Part shown: positions 10,317 through 49,824 of the stretch, one piece after another
Layout of the letters: the number at the start of each line of letters is the position of its first letter
How positions within the stretch are numbered: position 1 is the stretch's first letter
Assembly: GCA_030529945.1 (NCBI GenBank)
Contig: JAUMVX010000012.1
Coordinates: 1-54,948, forward strand
DNA: 54,948 nt
Source: Bacteroidia bacterium
Lineage (GTDB): Bacteria > Bacteroidota > Bacteroidia > Bacteroidales > UBA932
Direction: 5' to 3'
Program-made: the position numbers and the translations under genes
The notes under the pieces: model-generated
The model's database searches: none
Told to the model about the DNA's origin: nothing
The model's input: the letters and a program-made list of their open reading frames with translations, nothing else

Positions 10317-10478
10317 TTAGTGATGATGAAAAAATAAGTTGGTAAGTTTTTGTGAAGGATTTTTGTGGATAAATTTGTTTGTGAAGAAGGAGTGTACCGG
10401 GGTACACGACTGATGAACAAATGAATTTAGACCAAAAAAACGAGCAAAAGCACCAAGTTATTTTTTAGGAATCACTTA
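10317..10478 (+). mobile_element. 162-bp MITE-like inverted-repeat element, copy A
   Basis: The unit is bounded by TTA on both sides. Its ends are imperfect terminal inverted repeats: left GTGATGATGAAAAAATAAG (10320 on), right the complement form GTGATTCCTAAAAAATAAC read from 10475 backwards, both continuing to TTGGT. The centre is the perfect 16-base palindrome GTGTACCGGGGTACAC (10392-10407), flanked by further partial pairing so the whole unit can fold as one long hairpin. Copy B (48924-49085) has the same length and differs at one base. It encodes no transposase. The final TTA is the complement of the rsmA stop codon. I infer a non-autonomous mobile element; a structured RNA is the alternative. 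Confidence 0.7.
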
Positions 10479-11273
10479 TTCCTTCAAGCCCTCGAACATC
10501 AGAGTCAGCCGGACGAAATCTTCCACAGACAGTCTTTCCGCACGAAGCTCGAATATCGGGTCCGCGAGAAAGGACGGAGAGGTGCCGGCAGCGGCGTACA
10601 GAGGCTTGAGAGCATTGCGGAGTGTCTTTCGGCGCTGATTGAACGCGGTCTTCACCACCTGGCGGAAAAGTTTCTCGTCGCAGCCCAGCGACTCGCGCGA
10701 GTTCCTCTTCAGACGTATCACCGCAGACTTCACCTTAGGAGGCGGAGCGAAGGCCCCGGGACCCACAGAAAGCACATACTCTATGTCATACCACGCCTGA
10801 AGCAGCACGGAGAGGATGCCGTAGGTCTTCGTCCCCGGGCCTTCCGCGATTCTGTCCGCGACCTCTTTCTGGATCATACACACCACCTCCGGAACGCGGT
10901 CCTTATCCTCCAGAATCTTGAAGAAAATCTGCGAGGAGATGTTGTAGGGGAAATTTCCGATGACGCGGTAAGGTCCCGGAAATATCCTGCTCATATCCAG
11001 ACGCAGGTAGTCCCCCTCCATAAGGCGGCCGGGCATACCGTTGAAATGCGTGAGGAGATAGTTCACCGACTCGGAGTCTATCTCTATCATCTTGAGGTCT
11101 ATGTCCTCGCGCTGCAGAAGATGCTGCGTGAGCACTCCCATACCGGGGCCGATTTCCAGCACATCGCGAGGCAGGGTTTCATCGCAGCGCAGAGCTTTCA
11201 CTATCGTCTCCGCCACGCTCCGGTCAGTCAGAAAATGCTGACCCAGAGCCTTTTTCGCTCTCACCTCCATCAT
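10476..11273 (-). CDS. rsmA: 16S rRNA (adenine1518-N6/adenine1519-N6) dimethyltransferase
   Basis: RsmA/KsgA, 265 residues, which dimethylates the two adjacent adenines in helix 45 of 16S rRNA. Visible motifs: the N-terminal KKALGQHFL, SAM-binding motif I VLEIGPGMGVLT (about 40-51), and the catalytic NFPYNISSQI (about 107). The C-terminal domain includes FNQRRKTLRNAL. Two adjacent ATGs (11273 and 11270) could start it; the first overlaps the stop of the preceding YfhO gene. It is the third gene of the mutS-yfhO-rsmA operon. Its TAA stop is formed by the last three bases of repeat copy A. Confidence 0.96.
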   Translation of the reverse strand: MMEVRAKKALGQHFLTDRSVAETIVKALRCDETLPRDVLEIGPGMGVLTQHLLQREDIDLKMIEIDSESVNYLLTHFNGMPGRLMEGDYLRLDMSRIFPGPYRVIGNFPYNISSQIFFKILEDKDRVPEVVCMIQKEVADRIAEGPGTKTYGILSVLLQAWYDIEYVLSVGPGAFAPPPKVKSAVIRLKRNSRESLGCDEKLFRQVVKTAFNQRRKTLRNALKPLYAAAGTSPSFLADPIFELRAERLSVEDFVRLTLMFEGLKE

Positions 11274-36082: not shown

Positions 36083-36106
36083 TTAGTGATTCCTAAAAAA
36101 TAACTT
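36083..36106 (-). repeat. Relic D: reversed right end of the 162-bp element
   Basis: TTA followed by GTGATTCCTAAAAAATAACTT, the exact complement of the right terminus of copies A and B, lying in the leader of the ABC transporter operon. No other part of the element follows in this orientation. Confidence 0.65.
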
Positions 36107-36219: not shown

Positions 36220-36375
36220 GTGATTCGGTAAGTTTTTTTGAAGGATTTTTGTGATTTAGTGATGGCGAAAAAATAAGTTGGTACGTTTTTGTGGACACAT
36301 ATGTTTCCGAAGAAGGAGTGTACCGGAGGACACGACTGACGAGCAAATGAATATAGCCCGGAAAGACGGGCAAAT
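36220..36375 (+). repeat. Diverged copy C of the 162-bp element, lacking the right end
   Basis: The left end at 36257 (TTAGTGATGGCGAAAAAATA) and the centre GAAGAAGGAGTGTACCGG...ACACGACTGA and CAAATGAAT (36310-36352) match copies A and B in order, with scattered changes. The right terminal repeat is missing; sequence passes into the lipoprotein terminator. A partial left end (AGTGATTCGGTAAG, then GAAGGATTTTTGTG, 36219-36253) precedes it, as though two left halves lie in tandem. Confidence 0.6.
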
Positions 36376-48923: not shown

Positions 48924-49085
48924 TTAGTGATGATGAAAAAATAAGTTGGTAAGTTTTTGTGAAGGATTTTTGTGGATAAATTTGTTTGTGAAGAAGGAGT
49001 GTACCGGGGTACACGACTGATGAACAAATGAATTTAGACCAAAAAGACGAGCAAAAGCACCAAGTTATTTTTTAGGAATCACTTA
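48924..49085 (+). mobile_element. 162-bp MITE-like inverted-repeat element, copy B
   Basis: Same length and bounds as copy A (10317-10478), with one base different near the right end. TTA on both sides, matching terminal repeats (GTGATGATG... and ...AGGAATCAC), central palindrome at 48999-49014. Flanking sequence of the two copies is unrelated, so the unit edges are exact. It lies between the GH5 gene and the DUF3990 cassette, and its last TTA forms the stop codon of the 78-residue gene on the minus strand. Confidence 0.7.
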
Positions 49086-49319
49086 AGATAGCTCCGGTGT
49101 TACTTTGTTCTTTGAGAATTCTTCCGTGAGCATCTCATAGACATATACCGGACTTTGGAAATAAAGACCCGTTTGTGGATTCTCGAGCTTACGATAAGTG
49201 TCTGAAAGCAGAAACTTGTCCATCGCTTCGCGGATATCCCACCCATACTCCTTCATCAGCATCAGCGTGACTTCGTTACTGACGCTTTCAATGCAAAACT
49301 GAATATCTTGATTATTCAT
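49083..49319 (-). CDS. Small protein, third gene of the DUF3990 cassette
   Basis: A 78-residue soluble protein with no signal peptide. It begins with a helical part (IQFCIESVSNEVTLMLMKEYGWDIREAMDKFLLS) and ends with TGLYFQSPVYVYEMLTEEF, a phrase I associate with small genes beside DUF3990; I cannot name the family with certainty. Its start overlaps the end of the DUF3990 gene by eight bases, so it is translated together with it, as expected of a cognate antitoxin or accessory protein. The TAA stop is contributed by the terminus of repeat copy B. Confidence 0.75.
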   Translation of the reverse strand: MNNQDIQFCIESVSNEVTLMLMKEYGWDIREAMDKFLLSDTYRKLENPQTGLYFQSPVYVYEMLTEEFSKNKVTPELS

Positions 49320-49824
49320 CTTTGAGAACGAGTTTTTTAACAGCCTTTTCTGTGGCGAAGAAATATTGGATGAACTTCGGCTTGTTTCCTTTCAGCCTCT
49401 GAATGAGGGTATTCTTGTCGATATAACCACGGTTGAACAGAAACAGTTGAGTTCCTACGGAATCATCGGCAATTGGACCTGTTACGATATCATAGTCGTG
49501 GAGATTGACCGAGGTTTTGTTCTGCCGGTTCAAGAGTATGAAGTCAATCCAATCAAGATTATAACTATTAAAGATTCTGACTTTGAGGTCTTTGGAGTCA
49601 AGATTCCTTTCATCGAACTTAAACATCGTGACCGTCGGTACACCCGACTCTTCGCGCTGTGTCACCCTTTCTGCCCAGTCCTTGGCATTTTGAAGACTTG
49701 GGCTGAGATAGAATCCCTTTCCAAAGTCTTTAGCGATCCTGCTTTTAGTAAGATCCATCTGTTCTATTCTCCTGTTTGAGCCGTGATAAAGAGTCGTGAC
49801 AGAGTTCCTCCATTCTTTTGGCAA
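49312..49824 (-). CDS. DUF3990 protein, ADP-ribosyltransferase-like (toxin candidate)
   Basis: A 170-residue protein with the DUF3990 pattern: TLYHGSN near the N-terminus (His), DFGKGFYLSPSLQNAKDWA (Tyr and helix), YDIVTGPIADD, and KFIQYFFATEKAVKKL (Gln near the C-terminus). The order YHGS, GFYLS and a late Q/E resembles ADP-ribosyltransferase folds, so it may modify a cellular target; activity is inferred, not shown. The conserved region begins at TTLYHGSN; the only upstream start in frame is a TTG at 49824, inside the preceding gene, so the exact start is uncertain. Base composition is clearly A/T-rich relative to the PUL genes around it. Confidence 0.82.
   Translation of the reverse strand: MPKEWRNSVTTLYHGSNRRIEQMDLTKSRIAKDFGKGFYLSPSLQNAKDWAERVTQREESGVPTVTMFKFDERNLDSKDLKVRIFNSYNLDWIDFILLNRQNKTSVNLHDYDIVTGPIADDSVGTQLFLFNRGYIDKNTLIQRLKGNKPKFIQYFFATEKAVKKLVLKDE

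Follow-up and report, generated by a model that had tools for sequence, protein, structure and literature searches.

What is a 162-bp unit that occurs twice, with a single base of difference, in the 54,948-nucleotide stretch of Bacteroidia DNA analysed here (the window), and does it carry a function beyond its own movement? The two copies and their one-base difference, reported in the original prediction, were found again on re-reading the sequence; both stand, and a decayed third copy that had been missed is added to them. The features are as follows, in window coordinates.

10317..10478, + strand: MITE copy 1 with its target duplications; the element proper is 10320-10475, 156 bp
10317..10319: left target duplication TTA of copy 1, from flank comparison
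10476..10478: right target duplication TTA of copy 1; on the opposite strand it reads TAA and serves as stop codon of a ksgA-like ORF at 10476-11273 (- strand)
10320..10343, + strand: left terminal inverted repeat of copy 1, inner edge approximate
10452..10475, - strand: right terminal inverted repeat of copy 1, inner edge approximate
10357..10442, + strand: match to covariance model R1, 86.1 bits, the sequence itself being among the 55 in the model
10383..10416, + strand: conserved core hairpin of copy 1, GAAGAAGGA-stem-GACTGATGA, with three tandem G.A steps
48924..49085, + strand: MITE copy 2, 162 bp with target duplications TTA/TTA, from sequence match and flank comparison
48990..49023, + strand: core hairpin of copy 2
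36256..36374, + strand: third copy, decayed to 77% identity and without its right end
36085..36106, - strand: fragment of 22 bp, an exact match to positions 139-160 of the 162-bp unit

Copy 2 is adjoined by a DUF3990 gene (49312-49824) with a weak ADP-ribosyltransferase match.

The proposal that the unit is MITE-like and has moved recently is borne out by its own genome (2.28 Mb in 93 contigs, 95.7% complete), where scoring 40 of the 114 candidates from a first look gave 45 matches (best E 2.3e-80), of which 16 are almost complete, at 95-100% identity. Several of the remaining copies end at contig edges, some are without one or both ends, and some are decayed. Two others (L068 and L070) are internally deleted, 42-45 bp of joined ends remaining, a shortening of the kind expected of slippage at a hairpin. 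The flanking trinucleotides are identical on both sides in 15 of 18 placed copies (19 loci were entered and L067 could not be placed), compared with a mean of 6.1 for shuffled partners and none of 20,000 shuffles as high, and they vary together by site (TTA, TAA, ATA, TAT). Because other copies have TAA, ATA or TAT on both sides, the TTA is a 3-bp target duplication, as had been proposed, and the element proper is 156 bp. Flanks that match and change jointly between sites identify the repeat as a MITE: it is short, encodes nothing, exists in many near-identical copies, and has terminal inverted repeats and a target duplication that varies with the site. TNA and YTAR targets are those of IS5-family subgroups; the targets are TTA, TAA, ATA and TAT here and CTAG-like in most of the 27 rows from genome G794.

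At the centre of the element, where a 16-base palindrome had been described, pairing is indeed present, but as a stem of 7 bp whose arms are separated by GG, inside a predicted fold of the whole + strand (z -8.2 as DNA and -9.7 as RNA, with -5.5 for the other strand as DNA). The core of this fold is the hairpin GAAGAAGGA-stem-GACTGATGA, in which tandem G.A mismatches are spaced by covarying Watson-Crick pairs. With its strands opposed, GA-A-GA-AG-GA faces GA-CT-GA-T-GA, giving three tandem G.A steps between Watson-Crick pairs, and this rod is capped by a variable, covarying apical stem and extended by the arms of the element. A longer hairpin is inserted in the apical stem of one Streptomyces core (L501, 1842-1957). 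Five carriers outside Bacteroidales (L271, L273, L309, L363 and L493) have a second motif, GCAAGGC ... AACGC, around the core, perhaps another internal loop.

Conservation of the fold was assessed in an alignment of 55 sequences, derived from 179 elements by way of 64 non-redundant ones; the nine dropped were four chance hits in other sequence and five with broken or rearranged arms. In this alignment 85.9% of cells are paired (63.0% in shuffles), the covariation score is 0.604 (0.203 shuffled and at most 0.257 in slid controls), and 22 of 25 pairs have two-sided changes (19.4 in shuffles, 3 of 500 as high). These statistics are biased for the core and the apical stem, since the search had nearly fixed the core letters and a stem of at least 4 bp was selected. 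In a wider set, the model was run on 90 loci chosen out of about 500, most of them first found by pattern, and the 95 matches were aligned to it. There the core pair A3-U7 occurs as AU (67), GC (14), CG (3) or UA (1) and is unpaired in 2; A6-U4 occurs as AU (73), GC (12) or GU (4) and is unpaired in 1; G7-C3 occurs as GC (80) or UA (1) and is unpaired in 9. The covariation score of this set is 0.687 versus 0.204 shuffled; the plain count of pairs with two-sided changes (24) was equalled by 83 of 500 shuffles.

Mismatches favour folding of the + strand. In the inner arms of 48 elements, GT mismatches on this strand outnumber AC by 58 to 23, where composition alone predicts 83 to 54, and purine-purine mismatches outnumber pyrimidine-pyrimidine by 76 to 15, where it predicts about 141 to 81. 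This asymmetry, which is partly compositional, is claimed for the whole element only: it is not special to the centre, because an excess in the same direction is seen in the terminal repeats (GT 39, AC 12). A contrast in asymmetry between inner arms and terminal repeats was considered and rejected; a loose count spoke for it, and a stricter one gave p 0.69 for GT versus AC and p 0.06 for purine versus pyrimidine mismatches.

The core is far more widespread than the element of the window. Weak whole-element matches were obtained in 3 of 100 sampled relatives; G055 and G061 have the same centre with quite different arms, and G037 is without the core. The pattern GAAGAAGGA N8-34 GACTGATGA is found in 23 of 200 genomes of the genus, at least two of which (G025 and G135) have no apical stem and look like chance, and 24 times in the own genome; a reversed control gave one hit. 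A wide search of genome contigs by pattern returned at least 116 stretches. Among the matches listed, 89 of 113 distinct hits have an apical stem of 4 bp or more and 24 do not; some of the latter (for example L316, L328, L350 and L302) are members according to the later model search. By record title, the carriers among the matches listed include Muribaculaceae, Prevotella, Prevotellamassilia, Barnesiella, Alloprevotella, Rikenellaceae, Paludibacteraceae, Butyrivibrio, Lachnospiraceae, Sarcina, Nocardiopsis, Nannocystineae, Verrucomicrobiales and Lewinella. Many of these records are metagenome bins, of which single taxon assignments may be wrong; those of Sarcina, Nocardiopsis, Alloprevotella and Prevotellamassilia have strain names and no MAG label. 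In several phyla, and in Streptomyces among others, elements that differ in arms and terminal repeats have this core.

Among plasmids, 11 of the 13 records that match a 55-base core are from Streptomyces; the Embleya and Phenylobacterium matches are partial and look like chance. With the full Streptomyces element as query, 44 Streptomyces records match, and in 13 the match covers 80% or more. In viral contigs (at least 120 stretches), a proper stem occurs in one element type among the matches listed. The plasmid search returned nothing for the window element, and the Butyrivibrio core had no match in the phage collection or the E. coli collection. Model R1 matches all 18 genomes chosen as carriers, with 2 to 146 matches each and 29 in the own genome; as 150 candidates were scored per genome, the largest of these numbers may be underestimates. 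When the order was sampled evenly, under stricter filters, R1 matched 7 of 247 genomes, the own one included, with many copies in G434 and G338, two in G280 and weaker matches only in G365, G407 and G298. Pattern hits at order level (five of eight) and at phylum level outside the order (15 of 296 genomes, including the own one) were judged by eye to be chance-like, with no apical stem, and were set aside. Such a patchy distribution is as expected of mobile elements.

The original prediction had assigned the repeat to no known family. This holds for the window's own repeat, whose partner was not found, but sister elements of other species share their ends with IS5-family ISs. The terminal repeat GAAGCTGTTTTGAAATG is common to core-bearing MITEs and IS5-type remnants among these sister elements, and frames of the remnants match PF13340 (DUF4096), one above the cut-off and one below. 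The IS5 element L453 (901 bp, flanked by TTA on either side) has an open frame of 272 codons that matches PF01609 and DUF4096, and its 16-bp right end is also found in a MITE locus (L043). Neither this open IS nor L452 and L454 has a core, which is therefore not required for IS5 movement. In genome G802, three IS copies with the terminal repeat AGAGCCTGTTCCATAATATTTG and pieces of an IS5-type transposase have a core beyond the transposase 3' end, and two of them (L455 and L456) have a second core at the other end, facing inward (model, 30.0 and 22.2 bits). Genome G434 has three 322-bp copies with two inward cores each and with TAA, TTA and TAA, respectively, matching on both sides. Since G802 and G434 have inward cores while L452-L454 have none, the core is best described as an optional inward-facing module of IS5-type ends. 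No intact autonomous core-bearing element was found, the G802 transposase frames being partial, and the viral-contig search gave no parent IS. In the own genome, at 95.7% completeness over 93 contigs, a search for DUF4096, the transposase family looked for there, gave no match.

The repeat is thus probably a non-autonomous MITE that relies on an IS5-type DDE transposase for movement and has a strand-specific core hairpin that serves the element. The transposase would act in trans on the terminal inverted repeats and duplicate a 3-bp TNA-like target, and the core module, folded as a single strand, would serve the element itself. We infer, more tentatively and with slightly less than even confidence, that the core acts at the DNA level: as ssDNA or as an extruded hairpin exposed at replication or excision, it might be bound by the transposase or by a host factor, and its binding might raise mobility. 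A role as ssDNA in transposition seems somewhat more likely than a role as RNA. The lack of a replication-strand bias, seen with low power, counts against this account. Whether the core represents a class of structured single-stranded module (ssDNA or RNA) that spans phyla and has so far gone undescribed is, in our estimation, evenly balanced; the stacked tandem G.A rod would then be a portable part of IS5-type elements, and core MITEs would swap terminal repeats among the IS5-type transposases at hand while the rod is kept fixed by a conserved partner.

The most serious alternative is that the core acts as RNA. Transcripts entering the element would fold it, and the fold would block, terminate or process read-through into the transposase, or bind a host protein; read-through transcripts of IS10 and IS50, for example, are disarmed. 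This is a reading to be taken seriously, even if we incline against it. L455 and L456 each have two cores, which point into the element from its two ends; one of these lies upstream of the transposase frame, in the sense of that frame. Tandem G.A pairs are common in RNA, and the first apical pair is more often G.U (31 of 55 sequences) than any other type. On the reverse strand of two loci, L056 with three cores (G029) and L037 with two (G053), the cores lie upstream of tRNA-Val (1381-1458), between this gene and a promoter-like site, as if in the leader of the tRNA transcript. By eye, these cores have a fourth G.A step with two Watson-Crick pairs of its own; the promoter-like site reads TTTG-19 bases-TAnnTTTG, which we take to be the Bacteroidetes promoter consensus. 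It is the G.U pairs and these cores ahead of tRNA-Val that keep an RNA role among the possibilities. On the other side, a MITE has no transposase to protect, nothing in Rfam matches at the element in the sources searched, and insertion is indifferent to the direction of neighbouring genes: among 108 elements, 34 are sense and 29 antisense in the 63 tandem contexts (p 0.61), the other contexts being divergent (29) or convergent (16), as counted with crude longest-ORF gene calls and with many copies from the same genomes. The even split speaks against a role in host transcripts, and a role tied to neighbouring genes was rejected for want of any orientation bias. The original prediction held that mobility would be contradicted by a conserved RNA located upstream of a single class of genes. 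A strongly covarying fold does exist, but copies lie sense and antisense to their neighbours alike, so that it does not refute mobility.

It is improbable that the repeat is a host regulatory RNA or palindromic unit of gene ends, at the 3' ends of mRNAs, that spread secondarily. Some copies do lie on stop codons. The target of copy 1 is the stop codon of the ksgA-like gene (PF00398), and the CTAG target of two Streptomyces elements includes the TAG stop of the adjoining gene (L493, about 2447; L499, about 1801-1804). In copy 1 the duplication restores the stop, and an insertion of this kind may be harmless. However, the neighbouring gene ends are 5' in 121 and 3' in 95 of 216 cases, by the same crude gene calls, and none of the 14 ksgA ends examined in relatives has a core within 400 bases (192 bases in one). 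Gene order differs at these 14 ends, which are not exact empty sites because the next gene is a different one. Some match to the neighbourhood of copy 1 is found in 91 of 100 other genomes of the genus; that of G055 is through the element only.

A passive fossil, that is, one old element spread by horizontal transfer with its centre alike by descent only, is very improbable. The full-length copies of the own genome are near identical, as this would have it, yet arms and terminal repeats have widely diverged among elements in which 16 of 18 core letters are invariant (55 sequences, found with a pattern that had fixed nearly all of those letters). The fossil reading is disfavoured above all because variants outside the pattern change both sides of pairs, as in the all-GC Streptomyces form. 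Equally implausible is an element of the REP/BIME type, mobilised by a RAYT (Y1) transposase that acts on single-stranded DNA. Such an element would account for the small size of the hairpins, their conserved mismatches, the high copy number and the inverted pairs in some elements, but not for 3-bp target duplications with long terminal inverted repeats, nor for the lack of replication-strand bias by GC skew (15 of 34 in G794, 2 of 7 in G434; weak skew, low power).

The usual view is that a MITE requires nothing but its ends. A core that distant phyla have kept almost unchanged, with compensatory substitutions, next to freely varying ends would point to a second functional part, one that surveys of bacterial repeats could miss. 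The conserved core in similar repeats of very distant bacteria suggests an unrecognised functional structure of small mobile elements. The question raised is whether movement of a DDE-type element is controlled by a folded single strand within it, and which partner binds that strand. Further carriers, including some in Streptomyces, where genetics is well developed, are within reach of the covariance model.

Among known structures, those of Rfam 15 found nothing at the element in non-Streptomyces sources (nine with E up to 5 and eight with E up to 2), and the window searched against it at gathering thresholds yielded tRNAs only. In the core of the hammerhead ribozyme, which has three stems and a cleavage site, tandem G.A pairs are set among the letters CTGATGA and GAA. 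The repeat core has the same letters around its tandem G.A pairs, but a hammerhead was rejected, since the predicted folds form one continuous hairpin with no three-way junction and no Rfam hit falls at the element. No description of the core was found in the open-licence literature, and an account elsewhere is possible. The nearest relatives in kind may be the IS5-family MITEs of Porphyromonas gingivalis, MITE239, MITE464 and BrickBuilt (PMC4596501). They are likewise short and non-coding, with IS5-type terminal inverted repeats and Bacteroidales hosts, and BrickBuilt has predicted stem loops; the terminal repeats printed there differ, and the available part of that source describes no tandem-G.A hairpin or cross-phylum core (PMC4596501). 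MITECca01 of Cardinium is also a Bacteroidota MITE whose copies outnumber the parent IS, but it derives from IS982, and its published description does not use the word hairpin (PMC9769881). REP/BIME palindromes and their RAYT resemble the present repeat in having many hairpin copies per genome, sometimes as inverted pairs, as far as the accessible part of the source goes (PMC2817692). The present repeat differs from them in its long terminal inverted repeats, its 3-bp target duplications and, apparently, its DDE transposase.
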